A stretch of 64,000 bases of DNA from Xanthobacteraceae bacterium (GTDB taxonomy: Bacteria; Pseudomonadota; Alphaproteobacteria; Rhizobiales; Xanthobacteraceae): contig JAHBZE010000001.1 in the NCBI GenBank assembly GCA_019635585.1, positions 558,001 to 622,000 of the forward strand. The letters are read 5' to 3'. Position 1 is the first letter of the stretch; the number at the start of each line of letters is the position of its first letter. The notes below the pieces were generated by a model. It made no database searches. It was not told where the DNA came from and was given only the letters and a program-made list of their open reading frames with translations. A program made the translations under genes and the position numbers. Shown one piece after another: positions 1,160-11,902 of the stretch.

Positions 1160-2308
1160 CTAGCGGCGGAGGTTTGCCATCCGCTCGATCGCGCCGTCGA
1201 GGGTCGCGTCGTGCTTCGCGAAACAAAAGCGGACCACGCTGGTCACCGCGTCTTCGGCGTAGAAGGCCGAGACCGGAATCGCGGCGACCTTATTCTCGAT
1301 CACGAGCCGCTGGCAGAAGTCGCTGTCGCGTTCGTTGATGCCGAGTGCAGCCAGATCCACGTTCATGAAATAGGTGCCCTGGCTTTCGAGCGGATCGAAG
1401 CCGACCGTCCGCAAGCCCTTGGCAAAGCGATCGCGCGATCGCGCAAGCGTGGAGCGCATATTCAGAAAATAGTCGTCCGCCTTGCCAAGCCCGTAAGCCA
1501 CCGCCGCCTGCAAGTTCGGCGGTGTCGTAAAGGTGATGAACTGGTGCGCCTTCGATAGGCCACGCATCAAGGCGGAAGCAGCGCAGACGAAGCCCACTTT
1601 CCAACCGGTAAGGCAGAAAATCTTGCCGGCAGAGCCGATCTTCACCGTGCGCTCGCGCATTCCGGGAACGCTCAGCATAGAAATATGCTTGCGGCCGTCG
1701 AACACGACATGCTCCCAGACCTCGTCGCAGATCGCGACCGCGTCGAACTCGTTGCAGAAGCGCGCGAGCAGCCTCAGGTCTTCCATCGAATAAACGACGC
1801 CGGCAGGATTGTGCGGATTGTTGAACAGGACCGCCTTGGTCTTCTTTGTGAAGACCTTCTTCAGCGCGTCCTCGGTGATGCGCCAGTGCGGCGGCTCGAG
1901 ACGAACGAGCTTGGGAATGCCGCCTGCCCGCTTCACCATCGGCAGGTAGGAATCATAAAGCGGCTGGAACAGCACCACTTCATCGCCCGGCTCGATCAAG
2001 GTCAGGATCGCGCCGGTCAACGCCTCGGTCGCACCCGAAGTAATCATCACTTCCGAGTCCGGATCGAGCGCGACGCCTTGCCAATGCGCATAGTGTTTCG
2101 CAACGGAAGCGCGTAATTCCGGCAAACCCATCATCGGCGGATACTGGTTCCAGCCGTTGACGACGGCTTCCGCCGCTTTCTGCCGCACGTCTTCCGGGCC
2201 GGGATCGTCCGGAAAGCCCTGACCCAGATTGATCGCGTTGTGCTCGCGTGCGAGCCGCGACATCACCTCGAACACCGTGGTCGGCAGATTGGCGAATACG
2301 GGATGCAT
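1160..2308 (-). CDS. Class I/II PLP-dependent aminotransferase
   Basis: The 382-residue fold-type I aminotransferase begins INLGQGFPD, as in the kynurenine/methionine aminotransferase group (YbdL, KAT-like). Visible active-site elements are NNPHNPAG (Asn that contacts PLP), CDEVWEH (Asp on the pyridine nitrogen) and the SAGK segment carrying the Schiff-base lysine, followed by TGWKVGF. The usual Tyr in DEVY is Trp here. The ATG at 2308 was chosen because the 49 codons upstream are basic, low-complexity and overlap osmC. It lies 37 bases downstream of osmC in the same direction and could be cotranscribed. The amino-acid donor is not determined by sequence. Confidence 0.88.
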   Translation of the reverse strand: MHPVFANLPTTVFEVMSRLAREHNAINLGQGFPDDPGPEDVRQKAAEAVVNGWNQYPPMMGLPELRASVAKHYAHWQGVALDPDSEVMITSGATEALTGAILTLIEPGDEVVLFQPLYDSYLPMVKRAGGIPKLVRLEPPHWRITEDALKKVFTKKTKAVLFNNPHNPAGVVYSMEDLRLLARFCNEFDAVAICDEVWEHVVFDGRKHISMLSVPGMRERTVKIGSAGKIFCLTGWKVGFVCAASALMRGLSKAHQFITFTTPPNLQAAVAYGLGKADDYFLNMRSTLARSRDRFAKGLRTVGFDPLESQGTYFMNVDLAALGINERDSDFCQRLVIENKVAAIPVSAFYAEDAVTSVVRFCFAKHDATLDGAIERMANLRR

Positions 2309-2345
2309 CGAGGGATGTGCCGCGGCTACACGTGCGGAAAACGGA

Positions 2346-2780
2346 TCAGACTTTGGCGTCGACTTCGAGCGTGATCGACGGCACGCCGGCAAGCGCTTTC
2401 GAGACCGGGCAACCGACCTTCGCGCCTTCCGCCGCTTCCTTGATCTTCGCGGCATCGGCGCCGGGAGCGACCACCGCCGTCCTCAGCTTGATCGCGGTGA
2501 TGTTCGCGCCCTTCTCTCCGAGGATCACCTCGACTTCCGCGTCGGTATGGATGGATTTCTGCTCGATGCCTGCGCGCATCAGCGCAAAACCGAACGCCAT
2601 TGTGTAGCAGCCGGCATGCGCCGCGGCGATCAGTTCCTCCGGCGTGGTCTGCGAGGTGCCGCCTTCGAAGCGCGCTTTCGAGCTATAGGGTGAGTTCTTC
2701 AAGACACCCGTGGCGGTCGAGATGGTACCGGTGCCGTCTTTCGGCGAGCCTTCCCACTGTGCGCTGGCGTTGCTTTTCAT
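2346..2780 (-). CDS. OsmC/Ohr-family organic hydroperoxide reductase
   Basis: The 144-residue OsmC-type protein has the two redox cysteines in their family contexts, AAHAGCYTMAFG (peroxidatic) and VGCPVSKAL (resolving). It should reduce organic hydroperoxides in the cytosol with a dithiol donor. The start at 2780 is preceded by a clear AAGGAG ribosome site. The longer frame up to 2837 adds only basic filler. It sits 22 bases after the stop of the antiporter gene, in the same direction. The SxxYSSKARFEGG region marks it as OsmC rather than Ohr. Confidence 0.92.
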   Translation of the reverse strand: MKSNASAQWEGSPKDGTGTISTATGVLKNSPYSSKARFEGGTSQTTPEELIAAAHAGCYTMAFGFALMRAGIEQKSIHTDAEVEVILGEKGANITAIKLRTAVVAPGADAAKIKEAAEGAKVGCPVSKALAGVPSITLEVDAKV

Positions 2781-2802
2781 ATCGACGCTCCTTGTTTTGA
2801 TT

Positions 2803-4611
2803 TTAGTTTTTCGAGTTGCGGGCGACCTTGCGCGCAAGCCGTTTCGGGTAGCCTAGCATCCGGCGTATCGAAGTCGAACGGATGGGTGCAAAGCCGCCCT
2901 TCGGCTCCTGCACGAAATCGAGGCGCGCCTCGGAAACCTTGTCGTCGGCGAGTTCGCGCACGACCAGCCGCGCATGGCCGAAATCAATACGATTGCCGGG
3001 CCGCGGGTTTTCCTCGAAGCGGCTATCGAACAGTTCCGCGACCGTCATTTCGCGCTCCGCAGGCTGAACGTTCAATTCGTACATATCCGCGATGGCGCCG
3101 ATGCGAACATCGCCCTTGAACGGAAATGCCGCCGAGCTCTCCTCGTCGATATAACCTTCGTTCGGCGCGAACAGACGGTCGAGGCGCTCCACGCGCTGGG
3201 GCGGCGCGAGGAAATAGCCGTAATCTCCGACCTGAAGCGCGCCTGCTTCCTGCGGCGAGAGGATCGCCTCGTTGCGGATGATGAGCACCGGCTTCGCCCA
3301 GGCCGGCCAGGTGCCGTGGCCGACCACCGGGCTGCCTTCGACGATCGGATAGCCGACGAGTTCCTCGTCCAACTGTCCGGGCAAATCGATTTCGATGCGC
3401 TTCACCGATGGCGCAGGATCGTCGAGCGCGACGCCGAGCTTCTGCGCGACCGTCGTCAGCGACCAGCCCTGCACGATCAGCGACACCACCACCACGACGA
3501 AGGCAACGCTGAAATAAGTATCCGCATGCGGAACGTTCGAGAGCGTGGGAATAGCGGCAAGAAAAATCGAAACTGCGCCGCGCAAGCCCACCCAGGACAT
3601 GAAAACTTTTTCCGAGGTCTGGAATTTGAACGGCGCAAGACAGAGCCAGACCGCAATGGGGCGCGCGACGACGATAAGAAAAAACGCGATCGCAAAGGCG
3701 GCGGCGAGCGCCGGAACGAGCTTGCTCGGTGTCACCAGCAATCCGAGCATGATGAACATCGCGATCTGGCAGAGCCAGGTCAGCGTATCATGGAACGTCG
3801 TGATCGAGGCGAATGCGCGAACCGGCCGGTTACCGAGTACGATGCCCGCGAGATAGACCGCGAGAAAGCCGGAGCCGCCGATCGTAACCGTCAGTCCGTA
3901 GATGAATAGAGCGCTCGCGACGACGAGAAGCGGGTGCAGGCCGGATGGCAAAGCAATGCGGTTGAGCGCAAACGAAATCGCGAAACCACCGATGATGCCA
4001 ACGAGCGCGCCTTCGAGCGCTTCGCGAAAAACCGAGAACGCGATCACGCCTACCGATGTCTGCCCGCTCGCAAGCACGAGCTGCACCAGCAGCAGCGTCA
4101 TGAAGACCGCGATCGGATCGTTGGTGCCGGACTCCATTTCGAGCGTCGCGGCGACACGGCGTTTCAACTGCTGTCCACCGGCGCGCAACAGAAAGAACAC
4201 GGCAGCGGCATCCGTCGAGGCAACGATCGAGCCGACCAACATGCCTTCGACCCAGCTCAAGTTCAGAAGATAAGCGGCGAGCAAGCCGACCAGTACCGCC
4301 GTGACTACGACGCCGATCGTGGCAAGCGAGATCGCCGGATAGAATGCGCCCCTGAATGCCGCAAAACGCGTCCGCAGCCCGCCGTCGAACAGCACGATCG
4401 CAAGCGCCGCCGATCCGACGAGATAGGTTGAATAGAAATCGTTGAACTTGATGCCGCCCGGTCCCTCCTCGCCCGCAAGAAGGCCGACGAGCAGGAAGAT
4501 GAGAAGCAGCGGAGCACCAATCCGCGAGGCGACGAGACTCGAGAACACGCCAAGCACGGCCAGTGCTGCGCCTACCAGAATCAACAGATTGGCCGAGCCG
4601 ATATTCTCCAT
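2803..4611 (-). CDS. CPA1-family K+/H+ (or Na+/H+) antiporter with TrkA-C domain
   Basis: This is a 602-residue inner-membrane protein. Residues 1-390 hold about 12-13 hydrophobic helices of the Na+/H+ exchanger fold, with the STDAAAVFFLLR segment of the ion-binding core and SGTNDP. Residues about 400-480 form a TrkA-C regulatory domain (QLDEELVGYPIVEGSPV), and the rest resembles the CorC/HlyC-associated domain. This layout is that of NhaP2/CvrA, which exports K+ or Na+ in exchange for protons. The start is ATG 4611, with GTG 4614 directly before it. The ion specificity is inferred from domain layout only. Confidence 0.88.
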   Translation of the reverse strand: MENIGSANLLILVGAALAVLGVFSSLVASRIGAPLLLIFLLVGLLAGEEGPGGIKFNDFYSTYLVGSAALAIVLFDGGLRTRFAAFRGAFYPAISLATIGVVVTAVLVGLLAAYLLNLSWVEGMLVGSIVASTDAAAVFFLLRAGGQQLKRRVAATLEMESGTNDPIAVFMTLLLVQLVLASGQTSVGVIAFSVFREALEGALVGIIGGFAISFALNRIALPSGLHPLLVVASALFIYGLTVTIGGSGFLAVYLAGIVLGNRPVRAFASITTFHDTLTWLCQIAMFIMLGLLVTPSKLVPALAAAFAIAFFLIVVARPIAVWLCLAPFKFQTSEKVFMSWVGLRGAVSIFLAAIPTLSNVPHADTYFSVAFVVVVVSLIVQGWSLTTVAQKLGVALDDPAPSVKRIEIDLPGQLDEELVGYPIVEGSPVVGHGTWPAWAKPVLIIRNEAILSPQEAGALQVGDYGYFLAPPQRVERLDRLFAPNEGYIDEESSAAFPFKGDVRIGAIADMYELNVQPAEREMTVAELFDSRFEENPRPGNRIDFGHARLVVRELADDKVSEARLDFVQEPKGGFAPIRSTSIRRMLGYPKRLARKVARNSKN

Positions 4612-4644
4612 CACGCTTCTTTTTTCGGTTTGCCGCCGAATTTA

Positions 4645-4675
4645 GGGCCGGGAGGCGGAATCCCGTCCCCGGCCC
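4645..4675. terminator. Hairpin between the copper gene and the antiporter gene, possible terminator
   Basis: GGGCCGGG at 4645-4652 pairs with CCCGGCCC at 4668-4675 around a 15-base loop. It lies between the stop of the PCuAC gene (4747) and the antiporter start (4611), both on the minus strand. There is no proper T-run on the minus side, so termination is uncertain. Confidence 0.35.
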
Positions 4676-4746
4676 TGTCGCTCTTCCTCATTATGAGAAA
4701 GATAGAAGCGTTCGTCTCGAAAGTTCTCGGCGATTTCGAGACGTTT

Positions 4747-5229
4747 TTAGTGATTGTGCCCGTGACTTTTCTGCTGACCGGCACCCATGGCGCGAACTTC
4801 GAATTCGACTTCGACAGGTCCAGCTTTTTCGAAAACGAGGGTCGCCTTGTAGCGCTGGCCCGCGACGAGCGGGTTCTTCAGCTTCATCAGCATCAGATGG
4901 TAGCCGGCGGATTGCAGCTTTACCGTCGCACCCGCGGGGATCGCGAGGCCGTTTTTGAGCGGGCGCATTTTCATCACGCCGCCCTCGTTCGACATCTCGT
5001 GTACCTCGGGCTGGCCGGAGATCTCGGTCGAGAACGACACGAGCCGGTCGGCGCTGAGGCCCTTGTTGGTGATGGTGAGGTAACCGGCGGCCACTTCGGC
5101 GCCTGCCGGCGTGGCACGCAACCACGGCGCGGAAATCACGAGATCGCCCTTGGCTATATCGTGGGCCGACAGCGGTTGGGCTGCAAAGACGGCAACAAGC
5201 AGGGCAAAGCCCGCAACGAAAATTCGCAT
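4747..5229 (-). CDS. Copper chaperone PCu(A)C
   Basis: The 160-residue periplasmic protein has a cleavable signal peptide (residues 1-22, ending LSAHD). Its Cu(I) site follows the family pattern: HEM, then MKM about ten residues on, then HLM after another 20 or so, ending LMLMKL. A histidine-containing tail (QKSHGHNH) may be an extra copper site. PCu(A)C proteins deliver copper to cytochrome oxidase subunits. The start at 5229 leaves a normal signal peptide. The upstream DUF2946 gene is 66 bases away in the same direction, a common pairing in copper-handling operons. Confidence 0.9.
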   Translation of the reverse strand: MRIFVAGFALLVAVFAAQPLSAHDIAKGDLVISAPWLRATPAGAEVAAGYLTITNKGLSADRLVSFSTEISGQPEVHEMSNEGGVMKMRPLKNGLAIPAGATVKLQSAGYHLMLMKLKNPLVAGQRYKATLVFEKAGPVEVEFEVRAMGAGQQKSHGHNH

Positions 5230-5295
5230 TTTGAACTCCGTTATTTCGCGTCCGCGCATCGCACGGACGTCAGGACTGACAAGGAAAGTGACTCG

Positions 5296-5658
5296 TCAGT
5301 CCCGCGGCGGAGCCCTCGCGAGCTTAGCGGCAGGAAAAGCGGCGACAGCGGTGCGCGGCTGGAGCGCGTGCCATTCGACCGAATAGAAGGAAACCTCGTG
5401 CGAGAGCAGCGGCACGGGGGCCGGGACCGCAGTCTGACCGCCGCAAAGGCCCGGGCAACAATCCGGCGCGGCATGCGCTGGCAAAGGCGCGGAACCGGTC
5501 CCGCTGTCCGAGTTAGCCGCGCTTGGAGCGCAGATTGGCTGGATATTTCCGGATGCCTGCGCGTAACCGCCGGTAACCCCGCCCAATACGATCGTATAGG
5601 CGACGATTAGGGCGAGCGCTTTACGGAGCGGTCTGGCGGCGGACATGGCGTGACGCAT
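5296..5658 (-). CDS. DUF2946-like membrane-anchored protein
   Basis: This is a small protein of about 120 residues with an N-terminal hydrophobic helix (ALALIVAYTIVLGG) followed by a cysteine cluster DCCPGLCGG and a Pro/Ala-rich tail. The size, single anchor and Cys/His-type centre resemble DUF2946, usually found beside copper chaperones. That is consistent with the PCu(A)C gene directly downstream. The start is uncertain between ATG 5658 and ATG 5646, since neither has a strong ribosome site. The function is unknown. The cysteines could bind copper, which is inference. Confidence 0.65.
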   Translation of the reverse strand: MRHAMSAARPLRKALALIVAYTIVLGGVTGGYAQASGNIQPICAPSAANSDSGTGSAPLPAHAAPDCCPGLCGGQTAVPAPVPLLSHEVSFYSVEWHALQPRTAVAAFPAAKLARAPPRD

Positions 5659-5779
5659 ACCGGATCGGGGTTCGGCTGGCGAGGCGCCCCACGGACGCAG
5701 CGGAGATAGGCCCTGTCGCCAAAACCCTTTCAAATCAGCGGATTCTCCTTCACCGGGGCCTTTCCCCGGCATTGAAAGG

Positions 5780-5817
5780 CCCTATATCGTCCGCTATACG
5801 AACCGCGACATATAGGG
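5780..5817. promoter_or_regulatory. Inverted repeat and probable back-to-back -10 elements between DUF2946 and acpXL
   Basis: CCCTATAT (5780-5787) and ATATAGGG (5810-5817) form an exact 8-base inverted repeat with 22 bases between. Each arm carries a TATA-type -10-like element facing outward or inward, so this could be the divergent promoter region for the copper operon (minus) and the lipid A operon (plus, first codon at 5891). A regulator-binding palindrome is equally possible. Confidence 0.35.
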
Positions 5818-5890
5818 GCGCCGCCAGGGCTTTGGGGGACGCTCTTTTTCCTTTCCCCCGCCTGTCCGGCACCCGAGCGGAGACAAATTC

Positions 5891-6172
5891 ATGGCCTCGA
5901 CCTTCGATACGGTCGCCAACATCATCGCCGAAACCTGCGACATCCCGCGCGAGCAGATCACGCCGGAGAGCCACGCGATCGACGATCTCGGCATCGACAG
6001 CCTCGACTTCCTCGATATCGCCTTCGCCATAGACAAGGCGTTCGGCATCAAGCTGCCACTCGAGCAGTGGACCGCCGAGGTCAACGAGGGCAAGGCGACC
6101 ACCGAACAGTATTTCGTTCTGAAAAATCTCGCCGAGCGCATCGACGGACTCGTCGCCGCCAAGGGCGCATAG
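5891..6172 (+). CDS. acpXL: Acyl carrier protein AcpXL for very-long-chain fatty acids of lipid A
   Basis: This is a 93-residue acidic carrier protein with the phosphopantetheine attachment motif [11 protein letters not shown] (Ser about residue 37). The sequence around it ([16 protein letters not shown]) is characteristic of the special rhizobial AcpXL rather than of housekeeping AcpP. AcpXL carries the growing C26-C28 (omega-1)-hydroxy chain. It is the first gene of a seven-gene operon ending in lpxXL. The next gene begins 11 bases after its stop. Confidence 0.95.
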
Positions 6173-6183
6173 GCCCGGTACCC

Positions 6184-6648
6184 ATGCGGCTCGAATACTT
6201 CGAGCTCGTCGACAAGATCGAAGAGCTGAATCTCGCCGAAGGCCGCATTCTCGTGCGGGGAAACGTCCCCGCGGCGAGTCCCGTATTCGAGGGTCATTTT
6301 CCCGGGCACCCGCTGGTACCCGGAGTTCTGTTCGTCGAATTCATGGCACAGGCGTCCGGCTGGCTTCTGCTTGGCCGGCTGAATTTCGAGCGCATGGCGT
6401 TCCTCGCCTCCGTCAAGGAAGCGAAGATGCGTAACTTCGTGCAACCGGACACGCCGCTGCTCGCCGAAGCCAAAATCGAGCATGAAGGCTCCGGTTACGG
6501 CATCACCAACTGCAAGGTGATGAAACAGGACGGCACGCCGGTCGCGGACGCGACGATCACTCTTCGCATTATGCCCTTCCCCTCCTCCGAATTTTCCGAC
6601 GCCATGCGCGCCCGCGCACGCAAGGTCGGCTTTACGATTCCAGCGTGA
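6184..6648 (+). CDS. FabZ-like 3-hydroxyacyl-ACP dehydratase (VLCFA cluster)
   Basis: This 154-residue hotdog-fold protein has the FabZ active site: FEGHFPGHPLVPGVLF carries the catalytic His, and VEFMAQASG carries the Glu/Gln part. It should dehydrate 3-hydroxyacyl-AcpXL during chain elongation. The ATG at 6184 is close behind acpXL and removes an arginine-rich out-of-character extension. The stop TGA (6646-6648) overlaps a GTG that could start the next gene, suggesting translational coupling. In rhizobia this gene is called fabZXL. Confidence 0.92.
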   Translation: MRLEYFELVDKIEELNLAEGRILVRGNVPAASPVFEGHFPGHPLVPGVLFVEFMAQASGWLLLGRLNFERMAFLASVKEAKMRNFVQPDTPLLAEAKIEHEGSGYGITNCKVMKQDGTPVADATITLRIMPFPSSEFSDAMRARARKVGFTIPA

Positions 6649-6653
6649 GTGTA

Positions 6654-7838
6654 ATGGATACAAGTCGCGAAACCTGGATCACCGGCATCGGCCTGCTCTC
6701 TTCGCTCGGCGAAGGGAAAGAAACGCACCGCACGCGGCTCAACTCCGGCGACGTTCCGGTGACCGAGTCGAATACGTTTCCGGGTTTTCTGTTCCATCCG
6801 CTCGGGCCGGTCGATTTCGACAAGCAGATTCCGAAAAAGGGCGACCAACGCCAGATGGAACTGTGGCAGCGGATCGGCACCTATACCGCAGGTCTTGCGC
6901 TCACCGATGCAGGCGTCGCAGGCAATCAGGAAATCCTGAAGAAGATCGACATGATCGTCGCCGCGGCCGGCGGCGAGCGCGATGTGAAAGTAGATGCATC
7001 GATCGCCGACGAATTGCGCACCGCCAACAATCCCGAAGCGAAGCTGAACGAGCGGTTGCAAGGCGAATTGCGGCCGACGCTTTTTCTCGCACAGCTTTCG
7101 AATCTTCTCGCGGGCAACATCTCGATCGTTCATGGCGTAGTCGGCTCATCGCGCACCTTCATGGGCGAGGAAGGCTCGGGCGTGCAGGCGGTCCAGACCG
7201 CGCATGCGCGCATCCGCGCCGGCCAGAGCGAAATCGCACTCGTCGGCGGCGCCTATAACGCCGCGCGGCCGGACATGTTGGGCTTGTGGGAATTCGCGAA
7301 GATGCATTATCGCGACGAATACAAGCCGGTATTCGCGCCCGGACGAAAAGCCGGCATGGCCACCGGAACGGGTAGCTGCTTTCTGGTTTTGGAATCGCGT
7401 AAGCACGCTGAAGCACGCGGCGCGAAGCCGATCGCGAAAATCACTTATGTGGAGTCGGCCCGCGCGAAGCGCGGCCCGGGCAGCGTGCGCGAAACCGTCG
7501 CCACGTTGCTGGAGGACGCAAAGAAACAGGCGCATGGCGCAGGCGCGATCTATACGAGTGCCACCGGCGTCGAGCCAGTGACTAGCGAGGAAGGCGAAGC
7601 GCTCAAAGCCGCGGGCCTTCCGGTGCGCGCGGTCGTAAGCCGCATCGGCCAGACCTTCGAATCCATGTTCCCGTTCGGCATCGCATTTGCCGCGCTTGCC
7701 GTCGCAGACGGTAAACTCGCGGCAGCCATGCCGAACGTGCCGCTCGAAAGCATGGGTGCGGACGGCGTAAAGTCGATCATCGTATCCACAGTCGGCCACT
7801 GGCGCGGCGAAGGCGTCGGCGTTGTCGAAGCGATCTAA
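6654..7838 (+). CDS. Ketosynthase-like protein of the VLCFA cluster (FabF2XL position), catalytic residues missing
   Basis: A 394-residue protein with the thiolase/ketosynthase fold (TWITGIGLLSSLG start, IALVGGAYNAA, GSCFLVLE). Aligning by the GVQAVQTAHARI and VGGA segments, the position of the nucleophilic Cys (TACTSG in FabF) holds Glu173 in MGEEGSG. The first active-site His (NAHGTST) is replaced in TSATGVE, and the second (KSMTGH) in GQTFESM. The only cysteine is residue 242, far from the nucleophile site. It therefore resembles a chain-length factor and probably pairs with the intact ketosynthase encoded next. The start is ATG 6654, with GTG 6645 overlapping the fabZ stop as alternative. 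Confidence 0.85.
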   Translation: MDTSRETWITGIGLLSSLGEGKETHRTRLNSGDVPVTESNTFPGFLFHPLGPVDFDKQIPKKGDQRQMELWQRIGTYTAGLALTDAGVAGNQEILKKIDMIVAAAGGERDVKVDASIADELRTANNPEAKLNERLQGELRPTLFLAQLSNLLAGNISIVHGVVGSSRTFMGEEGSGVQAVQTAHARIRAGQSEIALVGGAYNAARPDMLGLWEFAKMHYRDEYKPVFAPGRKAGMATGTGSCFLVLESRKHAEARGAKPIAKITYVESARAKRGPGSVRETVATLLEDAKKQAHGAGAIYTSATGVEPVTSEEGEALKAAGLPVRAVVSRIGQTFESMFPFGIAFAALAVADGKLAAAMPNVPLESMGADGVKSIIVSTVGHWRGEGVGVVEAI

Positions 7839-7848
7839 CGAGGTTGTC

Positions 7849-9132
7849 ATGGCAAATAACTTCAAAGATTCCGCAGGCCGCCCGATCGTCGTCGTTACCG
7901 GGATGGGCATGGTGAGCTCGCTCGGTCAGGGCAAGGAAGAAAACTGGAAGAAGCTGACCGCGGGCGTGTCCGGCATCCACCGCATCAATCGCTTTCCACT
8001 CGATGGCCTGCGCACCACGATCGCTGGCACGGTCGATTTCCTGTTCGACAAACCCGTGAGCGCGCCCGAACTCTCGGAGCGCCTCGGCATGCTCGCGATC
8101 GAGGAAGCCGTCGCGCAGTCCGGCATCGGCTCGAAGGGGAATTTTCCGGGCCCGCTCTTTTGCGCAGTCGCACCGGTGGAAATGGAATGGCCGCAGCGCC
8201 GCACGCTCGCAGCCGAAGCCGATCCCGCGAAACCCTACACGCCGGAAGTCGCGCTCGAAGTTTCGGCGCGCGGCAAGCACCCGGAATGGCACGAGCTTTT
8301 CCTCTACGGCACCGTTGCCGATCATCTCGCGGATAAATTCGGCACCAAGGGTATGCCGATTTCGCTCTCGACAGCCTGCGCTTCCGGCGGCACCGCGATC
8401 CAACTCGGTCTGGAAGCGATCCGCCGCGGCGATTGCGATGCGGCGCTCGCGGTTGCGACCGACGGCTCGGTGCATGCGGAGGCGCTGATCCGCTTCTCGC
8501 TCCTCTCTGCACTCTCGACGCAGAACGATCCGCCGGAGCAGGCTTCTAAACCGTTCTCGAAAAACCGCGACGGTTTCGTGATGGCGGAAGGCGCCGGCGC
8601 GCTCGTACTCGAAAGCCTCGAACATGCGGTCGGCCGCGGTGCGAAGATTCTCGGTGTCGTCGCCGGTTGTGGCGAAGTGGCGGACAGCTTCCACCGCACG
8701 CGCTCGAGCCCGGATGGCAAGCCGGTGATTGCCTGCATGCATCAGGCGCTCGCCGACTCGGGCATGCAGACCGGCGACATCGACCACATCAACGCGCACG
8801 GCACCTCGACGCCTGAAAACGACAAGATGGAAACCAATTGCGTGATGGCCGTGTTCGGCGAACGCGCGAAGCAGATTCCGATCTCGTCGAACAAGTCGAT
8901 GATCGGCCATACGCTGACCGCAGCCGGCGCGATCGAGGCGATCGTCTCGCTGCTCACGATCCAGCATCAGCGCATCCCTCCGACAATCAACTACACCGTG
9001 CCGGATCCGACGATCCAGCTCGACGTCGTCGGGAATAAAGCGCGCGATGCGAAAGTTCGTACCGTGCTCTCGAACTCCTTCGGCTTCGGCGGGCAGAACG
9101 TGAGCCTCGTGCTTGCTGGAGAACCGGCTTGA
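7849..9132 (+). CDS. Beta-ketoacyl-ACP synthase of the VLCFA cluster (FabF1XL position)
   Basis: A 427-residue KASII-type enzyme with a complete active site: Cys177 in STACASGG, His317 in NAHGTST, Lys349 and His354 in NKSMIGH. It should condense malonyl units onto the acyl chain, on AcpXL or passed to it. The ATG at 7849 has GAGG just upstream and follows the preceding stop by ten bases. It lies directly after the non-catalytic homologue, an arrangement like KS-CLF pairs. Its stop overlaps the TTG start of the reductase (TTGA). Confidence 0.93.
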   Translation: MANNFKDSAGRPIVVVTGMGMVSSLGQGKEENWKKLTAGVSGIHRINRFPLDGLRTTIAGTVDFLFDKPVSAPELSERLGMLAIEEAVAQSGIGSKGNFPGPLFCAVAPVEMEWPQRRTLAAEADPAKPYTPEVALEVSARGKHPEWHELFLYGTVADHLADKFGTKGMPISLSTACASGGTAIQLGLEAIRRGDCDAALAVATDGSVHAEALIRFSLLSALSTQNDPPEQASKPFSKNRDGFVMAEGAGALVLESLEHAVGRGAKILGVVAGCGEVADSFHRTRSSPDGKPVIACMHQALADSGMQTGDIDHINAHGTSTPENDKMETNCVMAVFGERAKQIPISSNKSMIGHTLTAAGAIEAIVSLLTIQHQRIPPTINYTVPDPTIQLDVVGNKARDAKVRTVLSNSFGFGGQNVSLVLAGEPA

Positions 9133-9872
9133 GCAAGCCGCGCCGCGTTCTTGTAACCGGCGGCGGCCGGGGCCTCGGCGCGCAGATCGTGCGCGAGCTT
9201 GCGGCCGCAGGCCATGAAGTCGTCTTCACCTATCGCAGCGCGCGAGCCGAAGCGGATGCATTAATCAAGGAAATCGGTGGCAAAGTTACCGCGAAGGCGG
9301 TCGATCTCGCAGACGAACAGGCGGTCGAGAAATTCGCGGCCGAACTCGAGAGCGAGGCTCCCCTCTCCGGCTTCGTCCATAACGCCGGCATGAGCTACGA
9401 CGCGCTCGCCGCGGTGATGAAGATTTCCGAAGCCGAGAAAGTCATGCGCGTTAACTTCTGGTCGTTCGTGCGTATCTCGCAGGCGCTGGTGCGCCCGATG
9501 ACGCGCGCGCGCGACGGGAGGATGGTCGTGATCGGCTCGCTCGCCGCCCTCCACGCGAATGTCGGCAACGGCGCCTATGGTGCGTCGAAGGCGGCCCTTT
9601 TCGCCTTCGCTCGTACGCTCGCCACCGAAACCGCGCGCCGCGGCGTTACCGTCAACTATATCGCGCCGGGCTTTCTCGACACCGAGATGCTGACCCCCTA
9701 CGCGCAGTTCCGCGATAAGCTCGAAGGCGGCATTCCCGCCGGGCGCCTCGGCCAGCCCGCCGATGTGGCGGGACTGGTAGCTTTTCTGATGTCGCCCGCC
9801 GCCGCCTATATCACCGGCGCGGTGCTGCCGGTTGACGGCGGCCTCTCCGCTGGCCTAGGCGTCCAGCGCTAA
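9129..9872 (+). CDS. FabG-like 3-oxoacyl-ACP reductase (SDR)
   Basis: This is a 247-residue classical SDR with the cofactor loop TGGGRGLG, the NAG motif (HNAGMSYD), catalytic Ser in GSLAAL, and YGASK with Tyr and Lys. It ends in the family C-terminus ITGAVLPVDGGLS. It should reduce 3-ketoacyl-AcpXL with NADPH. The start is TTG 9129, overlapping the ketosynthase stop by four bases, and there is no later Met in a plausible place. The overlap supports coupled translation within the lipid A operon. Confidence 0.92.
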   Translation: MSKPRRVLVTGGGRGLGAQIVRELAAAGHEVVFTYRSARAEADALIKEIGGKVTAKAVDLADEQAVEKFAAELESEAPLSGFVHNAGMSYDALAAVMKISEAEKVMRVNFWSFVRISQALVRPMTRARDGRMVVIGSLAALHANVGNGAYGASKAALFAFARTLATETARRGVTVNYIAPGFLDTEMLTPYAQFRDKLEGGIPAGRLGQPADVAGLVAFLMSPAAAYITGAVLPVDGGLSAGLGVQR

Positions 9873-9902
9873 TTCAATTTCACAGCCGGACTGGATTTGC
9901 CC

Positions 9903-10925
9903 ATGCGTGCGTTGCGTCTGCTTGGTGACCGCAGGCTCGAAATCTCGGAAGTCGATGCGCCCGCCGCGCCCGGCCCGGGAGAAGTGCAAATCAGGACGCA
10001 CGCGGTCGCGCTCAACCACATCGACGTCTGGGGATGGCGCGGCATGGCTTTCGCCAAGCGCAAGATGCCGCTCGTTGTCGGCGCGGAAGCCTCCGGCGAA
10101 ATCGCAGCCGTTGGCGAAGGCGTAACCGGTTTCAAGGTTGGCGATCCGGTCGTGCCCTATGGCGCGCTTACCTGCGGGCATTGCGCGCAATGCAAAAAGG
10201 GCCGCGATAACCTCTGCGAAAACGTGCAGGGCCTCGCGGGCTTTCATGTCGATGGCTATGCGCAGGATCTTTACAATTGGCCGGCGCGGCTGACGATCAA
10301 AGTGCCGAAGGGCGTATCGCCTTCGGATGCTTCCTGCGCTCCCCTGACCTTCGCCACCGTCGAGCACATGTTCTTCGACAACGCGAAACTCGAACCCGGC
10401 GAAGTCGTGCTGGTCCAGGCAGGAGGCTCGGGCATCGGCTCGGCTGCAATCAAGCTCGCAAAAGCGATCGGCTGCACGGTTTACACGACCGTCGGCGACG
10501 ACGAGAAGGCTGCAAAAGCAAAAGCGCTCGGTGCGGACGAAGTCATCAACTATCGGAAGGACCGCTTCGAAGGCGTGGTTCGCAAGCTGACGAAGAAAAA
10601 AGGTGTCGATGTCGTGTTCGAGCACACGGGTGCCGAAACCTGGAATGGCTCGCTCTTGTCGATGAAGAAAGGCGGGCGTCTTGTCACCTGCGGTTCGACC
10701 TCCGGACCGACGGTGCAGATGAATCTGATGCAGCTTTTCCAGCAGCAGTACAAAATCTTCGGCTCGTTCGGCTTCACCATCAAGAATGTAGCGGATGCGC
10801 TCGCCAAGATCGCGAGCGGCATTTCTCCGGTGATCGATACCGAACTGCCGCTCGCCGAATTCGAGAAGGGCCTCGAACGTCTCGAGAGCCGCCGCGTGTT
10901 CGGCAAGATCGTGGTTCGTTTCTGA
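9903..10925 (+). CDS. MDR-superfamily reductase of the VLCFA cluster (AdhXL-like), catalytic-zinc ligands missing
   Basis: This is a 340-residue medium-chain dehydrogenase/reductase. It keeps the four-Cys structural-zinc lobe (TCGHCAQCKKGRDNLC) and the NADP loop (QAGGSGIGSAA). The usual catalytic-zinc ligands are not seen: the Cys of the CxxD motif is absent in LNHIDVWGWRG, and GHE is GAE. Annotated as an alcohol dehydrogenase in rhizobial clusters, it may instead act as the enoyl-AcpXL reductase of the elongation cycle, as zinc-independent MDR domains do in fatty acid and polyketide synthases. That is inference. The start is ATG 9903, with TTG 9897 as alternative. Confidence 0.85.
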   Translation: MRALRLLGDRRLEISEVDAPAAPGPGEVQIRTHAVALNHIDVWGWRGMAFAKRKMPLVVGAEASGEIAAVGEGVTGFKVGDPVVPYGALTCGHCAQCKKGRDNLCENVQGLAGFHVDGYAQDLYNWPARLTIKVPKGVSPSDASCAPLTFATVEHMFFDNAKLEPGEVVLVQAGGSGIGSAAIKLAKAIGCTVYTTVGDDEKAAKAKALGADEVINYRKDRFEGVVRKLTKKKGVDVVFEHTGAETWNGSLLSMKKGGRLVTCGSTSGPTVQMNLMQLFQQQYKIFGSFGFTIKNVADALAKIASGISPVIDTELPLAEFEKGLERLESRRVFGKIVVRF

Positions 10926-10927
10926 CG

Positions 10928-11902
10928 ATGGGCCTGCCCTTTCGCGTCAAATATTATTACTGGATCAAGCACACTCGACTCGGCCGATTGTACTTGCGCT
11001 ATGTGGCAACGCCATTCGCCAAGATGCGCGATTTCTTCGTCTGGGTTGTCGTGCGGGCGCTGGTCGCGGTTCTTCGCGCAATCGGACCCGACCGCTCCTC
11101 CGACCTCGCGGGTCGCGCCGCGCGGTGGTTGGGGCCGAAGCTATCGAACTCGAGAATCGCTCGCACAAACCTGAAGGCTTCTTTTCCCGAAAAGTCGGAC
11201 GAAGAGATCGAGGAGATCGTTCGCGGTGTCTGGGAAAACTTGGGCCGCGTCGCGGGCGAATTCATTCACCTGCCGAAGATGTGGGACTACGATCCCGACA
11301 AGCCCAACACGGGCCGAATTGAATTCACGCCGCGGACGGCGGAGCTTTATAATCTCCTGCGCGATGACGGAAAGCCCGCGATCTTCGTTTCCGCGCATCT
11401 TGCGAATTGGGAATTGCCTGCGGTCGCTGCCTTCGCGCATGGGCTCGATACGGCCGTCGTTTATAAGGCGCCGACCAATCGCGGCTTTGCCGAACTCGTG
11501 CGCGAAACCCGCACCGGCGCAATGGCCGATCTCATCAGTTCGGATCGGCACTCTGTCTTCACAATGACGAAGGTACTGGAAGAAGGCCGCCATCTCGGCC
11601 TGGTCGTGGATCAGCATTTCGGCGGCGGCGTGCCGATCACAATGTTCGGAAGAAGAGCGCTGGCGAGCCCCCTACCCGCGCGGCTCGCTCGCAATGTCGA
11701 TTGCCCGGTGCACGCGGTGCGCGCAATCCGGCTTCCCGGCAACCGCTTTCGCATGGAACTGACCGAGGAACTGCACCTGCCGCGCGACGCGGAAGGCAAG
11801 ATCGACATCGCCGCGGCGACGCAGAAGATTTCCGACGTATTCGAGGGCTGGATCCGCGATACGCCGGAACAGTGGCTCTGGTTGCATCGCCGTTGGCGGT
11901 GA
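10928..11902 (+). CDS. lpxXL: Lipid A very-long-chain acyltransferase LpxXL (HtrB/LpxL family)
   Basis: A 324-residue membrane-associated acyltransferase with the HX4E catalytic motif (SAHLANWE, about residue 156) and the later DQHFGGG segment typical of the LpxL family. An N-terminal hydrophobic helix (FFVWVVVRALVAVLRAIG) anchors it to the inner membrane. As last gene of the AcpXL cluster, it should transfer the C26-C28 hydroxy acyl group from AcpXL to Kdo2-lipid IVA. The ATG at 10928 is two bases after the MDR stop. It ends six bases before the convergent polyamine-binding gene. Confidence 0.93.
   Translation: MGLPFRVKYYYWIKHTRLGRLYLRYVATPFAKMRDFFVWVVVRALVAVLRAIGPDRSSDLAGRAARWLGPKLSNSRIARTNLKASFPEKSDEEIEEIVRGVWENLGRVAGEFIHLPKMWDYDPDKPNTGRIEFTPRTAELYNLLRDDGKPAIFVSAHLANWELPAVAAFAHGLDTAVVYKAPTNRGFAELVRETRTGAMADLISSDRHSVFTMTKVLEEGRHLGLVVDQHFGGGVPITMFGRRALASPLPARLARNVDCPVHAVRAIRLPGNRFRMELTEELHLPRDAEGKIDIAAATQKISDVFEGWIRDTPEQWLWLHRRWR

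Follow-up and report, generated by a model that had tools for sequence, protein, structure and literature searches.

The window analysed here, a 64,000-nucleotide stretch of a contig from a Xanthobacteraceae bacterium, includes a run of seven genes on the plus strand that code for AcpXL, FabZXL, FabF2XL, FabF1XL, a FabG-like reductase, AdhXL, and LpxXL. AcpXL, the dedicated acyl carrier protein of very-long-chain fatty acid (VLCFA) synthesis, is encoded by nucleotides 5891 to 6172 (175 bits with NCBIfam NF005079/PRK06508, whose cut-off is 83), and FabZXL, a 3-hydroxyacyl-ACP dehydratase, by nucleotides 6184 to 6648 (Pfam FabA-like; FabZ models score 76 bits, below the equivalog cut-off). The gene fabF2XL (nucleotides 6654 to 7838), located between fabZXL and fabF1XL within this acpXL-lpxXL cluster, codes for a 394-amino acid protein that matches NCBIfam NF005084/PRK06519 with 527.5 bits against a cut-off of 320, and that is described below as a putative non-catalytic partner with the ketosynthase (KS) fold, or pseudo-KS, resembling a chain-length factor (CLF). 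Its closest named relative is that of Xanthobacteraceae bacterium ACE_PRO33 (96% identity). The fabF1XL gene (nucleotides 7849 to 9132; NF005076/PRK06501, 744 bits against 629) overlaps by 4 bases the gene for the FabG-like 3-oxoacyl-ACP reductase (nucleotides 9129 to 9872), which reaches about 200 bits with FabG models, below their equivalog cut-offs. AdhXL (nucleotides 9897 to 10925) is a zinc-type MDR dehydrogenase with the Pfam domains ADH_N and ADH_zinc_N and is a candidate enoyl-ACP reductase, and LpxXL, the lipid A very-long-chain acyltransferase, is encoded by nucleotides 10928 to 11902 (NF005120/PRK06553, 389 bits against 273), its start codon being taken from the open reading frame.

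The cluster has its own FabG-like ketoreductase gene, between fabF1XL and adhXL, and therefore a full elongation cycle is encoded. This gene is present in the Rhodoplanes, Bosea, and Ancylobacter relatives and absent from the Rhizobiaceae and Phyllobacterium clusters. A rearranged order, with lpxXL adjoining acpXL at the opposite end of the cluster, was found in loci from members of the class outside the order (L018 and L009-L012).

The active-site positions of FabF2XL were read against the numbering of E. coli FabF, using homologues from the class and the order of the window and from named genomes. In the window protein the nucleophile Cys163 is replaced by Glu173, His303 by Thr304, Lys335 by Val328, and His340 by Gln333; the first His motif reads TSATG and the second IGQ, and the sole cysteine is Cys242. 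HMMER profile alignments to solved FabF chains gave the same placement of the motifs, while a smaller alignment put Ser302, and not Thr304, opposite His303. The original prediction that the catalytic triad is lost, with Glu173 at the nucleophile position and the only cysteine at residue 242, was thus borne out by the FabF alignments and by the homologues. The change at the nucleophile position is not a chance one, since Glu stands there in all 126 homologues (99 of the 99 non-redundant ones). It is directly preceded by another invariant Glu, so that Gly171-Glu172-Glu173 (nucleotides 7164 to 7172) form an invariant GEE in place of the TAC of active ketosynthases. Thr, Ser, Cys, or Ala takes the place of His303 in 126/126, Lys335 is gone in 126/126, and no column of the alignment of the 126 sequences contains a conserved cysteine. 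The loss of Cys, first His, and Lys is therefore universal among these homologues, but that of the second His is not: the claim that both His motifs are replaced holds for the window protein and fails for the family, since His340 has an equivalent in 114 of the 126 sequences and is Gln in nine, the lineage of the window among them. The loss of the second His is for this reason lineage-specific, being peculiar to the lineage of the window and a few others. The disappearance of the triad is thus an old and fixed trait, whereas the second His is a residue that the family can do without but has mostly kept.

FabF2XL does not have the Cys-His-His plus Lys centre of an active beta-ketoacyl-ACP synthase. 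A set of charged, invariant or near-invariant residues (Arg167, Glu172, Glu173, Arg273, Arg325, Glu336, and Glu386) is found round the former site, where they may make a salt-bridge cluster. The 265-268 active-site loop and the FGFGG loop are missing from the family, and a Pfam search recognised the N-terminal ketosynthase domain only.

The next gene encodes an intact ketosynthase, as had been proposed: the sequence from the ATG at 7849 to the stop at 9132 includes the active residues Cys177, His317, Lys349, and His354. The FabF1XL homologues retain these positions almost without exception (Cys in 124/124, the equivalent of His303 in 123/124, Lys in 124/124, and that of His340 in 124/124). FabF1XL also has an invariant Glu and an invariant Arg (124/124) at the positions of E. 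coli FabF residues 197 and 201, where FabF has Leu and Gly. These residues lie near the acyl pocket and the partner interface, and could possibly be a partner- or substrate-specific feature.

The two genes are strictly paired. When genomes of the order were searched with matched thresholds, FabF2XL and FabF1XL were found in the same 49 of the 199, and none had one of them alone. In the class FabF2XL was found in 15 genomes and FabF1XL in 14 of those; in the exception, the match to FabF2XL stops 12 bases before the end of the contig. An intact FabF1XL is encoded next to FabF2XL, on the same strand, in 123 of 126 cases, and the remaining three are apparently L082, L090, and L125, in which the adjoining FabF1XL is truncated or split. 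In L125 (Phyllobacterium sp. 628) FabF1XL is spread over two open reading frames and FabF2XL is intact, possibly as a result of a frameshift or a sequencing error. Duplication also involves the pair, since two tandem FabF2XL-FabF1XL pairs with AdhXL between them are found within one VLCFA cluster of Hyphomicrobium sp. (L101 and L126, about 1200 to 7490). Double copies were seen as well in several genomes of one family in the search of the order. No natural fusion of fabF2XL and fabF1XL was recognised, as judged by the length of open reading frames only.

In FabF homodimers, residues of about 140 to 180 touch loops 260-270 and 398-402 at the active site of the partner, whose a8 packs against helices a4 and a5 (PMC5206705). 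Conservation was compared in 99 non-redundant FabF2XL/FabF1XL pairs taken from the same loci, with a separate alignment for each protein anchored on the nucleophile. The segment from -34 to -14 relative to the nucleophile, nearly gap-free, corresponds to residues 139-159 of FabF2XL (LRPTLFLAQLSNLLAGNISIV, nucleotides 7068 to 7130) and to residues 129-149 of E. coli FabF; in FabF its homologue is the dimer-crossing segment, which reaches into the partner subunit. It is the most conserved 21-amino acid window of FabF2XL, with a mean entropy of 0.17 bits, the minimum of 379 windows. In FabF1XL the same segment has 2.15 bits and is within the 9% most variable windows, although over the whole protein it is FabF2XL that is less conserved (1.61 versus 1.21 bits). 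The FabF1XL segment is often charged, with Asp, Glu, and Arg at 132, 135, and 136, unlike the wall of a fatty-acyl pocket. Homodimeric FabF homologues keep the FabF residues of the segment (F132 in 17/17, P135 in 17/17, and L138 in 16/17). Opposite conservation of this kind, together with the missing 265-268 and FGFGG loops of FabF2XL, is expected if FabF2XL, and not a second FabF1XL, completes the tunnel of FabF1XL; there would then be one live site, and the FabF1XL segment would face the dead one. The result rests on the nucleophile-anchored alignments, because one alignment made for tree building misplaces FabF1XL upstream of the segment. Position 116, within the stretch of helix a4, is Asp in 99/99 FabF2XL and Arg in 96/99 FabF1XL sequences. 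Helix a4 of FabF packs on its counterpart (PMC5206705), and the opposite charges are suggestive of a preference for the heterodimer.

The AlphaFold2 model of the FabF2XL monomer, made with 70 homologues, is a confident, complete two-domain KS fold (pLDDT 91.8, pTM 0.91) in which the block that contains residues 139-159 is the least confident (pLDDT 60). Its TM-score against FabF is about 0.8, and comparison of folds as a means of telling KS from CLF was uninformative since the KS fold matches everything at about this value. For the pair, the window fabF2XL and fabF1XL were read as a fused chain in which a single step of four bases passes the fabF2XL stop, and the paired alignment consisted of the window and 25 relatives with both genes in frame, read through the stop. 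The resulting 825-residue model has a pTM of 0.88 and two halves of about 400 amino acids, with pLDDT below 50 only in the linker and one short loop. Foldseek matched it to the KS-CLF didomain of PfaC, from a PUFA synthase (PDB 6RIW), over 958 columns with a TM-score of 0.71 and 14% identity. PfaC was the only natural KS-CLF chain matched over both halves. Single FabF chains, or one half alone, reach about 0.46 against the fused model, and both halves therefore fit a natural KS-CLF simultaneously. Since the window has CLF-KS order and PfaC the reverse, KS-CLF, the match depends on pseudo-two-fold symmetry. The model, a prediction only, supports, and does not prove, a pseudo-two-fold, KS-CLF-like packing of FabF2XL and FabF1XL, because AlphaFold2, which has seen KS homodimers in training, may pack any two KS folds in this way.

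The KS-CLF of PfaC also serves long-chain fatty acid synthesis, and among fatty acid synthases the PUFA synthase KS-CLF is the closest parallel in function, although PfaC is one polypeptide of a large multidomain synthase while FabF2XL and FabF1XL are separate type II proteins. FabF2XL shares with CLF proteins that it is a KS-fold paralogue without the nucleophilic Cys and that its gene never occurs without that of an intact KS, to which it is adjacent. The KS-CLF pairs of type II polyketide synthases (actinorhodin, PDB 1TQY; ishigamide Iga11-Iga12; anthraquinone AntD-AntE) are likewise adjacent and obligate and consist of an intact KS and a KS-fold partner that lacks the nucleophile, but what the FabF2XL pair makes is a saturated acyl chain destined for lipid A. 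The actinorhodin (act) CLF, the only CLF aligned, has Gln at the nucleophile position, where FabF2XL has Glu in 126/126, and keeps the catalytic Lys that FabF2XL has lost. The actinorhodin KS, unlike FabF1XL, keeps its own dimer-crossing segment, and therefore the asymmetry between FabF2XL and FabF1XL is not a general signature of CLF proteins. ApeO-ApeC is also a KS-CLF pair, from a type II, multi-cycle pathway of Gram-negative bacteria; its product, in contrast, is an aryl polyene, and ApeC is without most of the second thiolase domain, while FabF2XL is predicted to retain the whole two-domain fold (PMC8358021). The solved sequences nearest to FabF2XL and FabF1XL are those of the FabF/FabB homodimers, which have the same fold and two live sites, whereas FabF2XL has none. 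As to descent, FastTree joins FabF2XL and the act CLF with a support of 0.68, both being very long branches, while a mixture-model tree does not place them together and groups FabF2XL with FabF1XL (support 70/81). The grouping of FabF2XL with the act CLF has a p-AU of 0.5, and neither alternative placement of these very long branches is rejected.

Insertion mutants of fabF2XL in Agrobacterium fabrum lost the 28:0(27-OH) acid and were partially rescued by fabF2XL in trans (PMC11901934). The mutation could be partly polar because fabF2XL is upstream of fabF1XL; the partial rescue in trans argues against this. In Bradyrhizobium ORS278 no acpXL, fabZXL, fabF1XL, or fabF2XL mutants were obtained (PMC5613085). 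VLCFA synthesis therefore seems to require a protein that has no catalytic centre, which is what one would expect of a structural partner.

The explanation that we favour, with a probability of roughly three in four, is that the catalysis of FabF2XL is gone for good and that the protein pairs with FabF1XL in an obligate heterodimer, which works like a KS-CLF. The original prediction of such a pair gains from co-occurrence, adjacency, duplication of the pair, the asymmetry of the segment, and the AlphaFold2 match to PfaC; against it counts that the nearest solved sequences and folds to FabF2XL are FabF and not CLF. In the proposed mechanism the invariant segment 139-159 of FabF2XL would cross the interface and form the far wall of the acyl tunnel of FabF1XL, the dead site of FabF2XL itself would be filled by its invariant charged residues, and the AcpXL-borne chain would be extended solely at Cys177 of FabF1XL. 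Less certainly, the shape of the joint tunnel would allow growth to C26-C30 before transfer to lipid A by LpxXL. Control of chain length by FabF2XL, which the original prediction had put forward for C26-C28, is plausible, and FabF2XL may act as a chain-length factor that sets C26-C30, with the lower certainty of that step. A bolder proposal, which we think improbable, is that the AcpXL pathway is a CLF-controlled type II fatty acid synthase in which a charged loop of FabF2XL closes the tunnel, reads the omega-1 oxygen, and so sets C26-C30. This near-invariant loop consists of Glu108-Arg109-Asp110, plus Asp114, and in the alignment with the act CLF, Arg109 lies opposite Phe109; the sensing of the omega-1 oxygen is speculation.

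The same heterodimer is assumed by an explanation that differs in the last step only, namely that FabF2XL is a partner or scaffold acting in FabF1XL stability or AcpXL docking, and that it is FabF1XL itself, or the range of chains acceptable to LpxXL, that determines length. All the evidence for pairing is compatible with it, and several invariant residues of FabF2XL are charged and not pocket-like, but the invariant segment is the expected tunnel lining and the corresponding stretch of FabF1XL has ceased to be conserved, so that we regard the scaffold as possible but on the unlikely side. The invariant charged residues in the dead site suggest a selected structure and would also suit a FabF2XL homodimer serving as a separate non-catalytic carrier or regulator of acyl-AcpXL; this we consider very unlikely given the strict one-to-one pairing and the drift of FabF1XL in a segment that its own homodimer would need to line its pocket.

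Little credence, too, can be given to FabF2XL being a KSQ-type decarboxylase that primes the cluster by converting malonyl-AcpXL to acetyl-AcpXL. Glu173 does occupy the position of the KSQ/CLF Gln, beside another Glu as in the 'AEQ' of the act CLF, where a Glu likewise directly precedes the position of the lost Cys; moreover, 114/126 sequences have the second His. However, the first His and the Lys are gone in 126/126, and the second His is gone as well in the lineage of the window; the pair of His that binds the thioester is therefore absent. Elongation by FabF2XL and FabF1XL independently, each being an enzyme of its own, is what their names and database entries imply: NCBIfam calls both PRK06519 and PRK06501 'beta-ketoacyl-ACP synthase', and both proteins have been termed 'fatty acid elongation proteins' (PMC5613085). 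With no nucleophile and no conserved cysteine in FabF2XL, this explanation is close to refuted by sequence and we hold it to be extremely improbable; the name attached to NF005084/PRK06519 is probably misleading for FabF2XL.

The literature searched, which left most subscription papers outside and whose silence is not proof, contained nothing that ties the AcpXL cluster to ketosynthase heterodimers or to CLF proteins, and within it FabF2XL as a pseudo-KS partner is unreported. Many Hyphomicrobiales depend on the very-long-chain acid of lipid A for a strong envelope and for symbiosis. Viewing FabF2XL as a dead, obligate partner would correct a widely propagated annotation as an elongation enzyme and would explain why the two ketosynthase genes are constantly retained together, and the unexplained C26-C30 length becomes testable through one gene, fabF2XL. 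If this reading is true, the logic of KS-CLF pairs, familiar from polyketides and PUFA synthases, would hold for lipid A as well.
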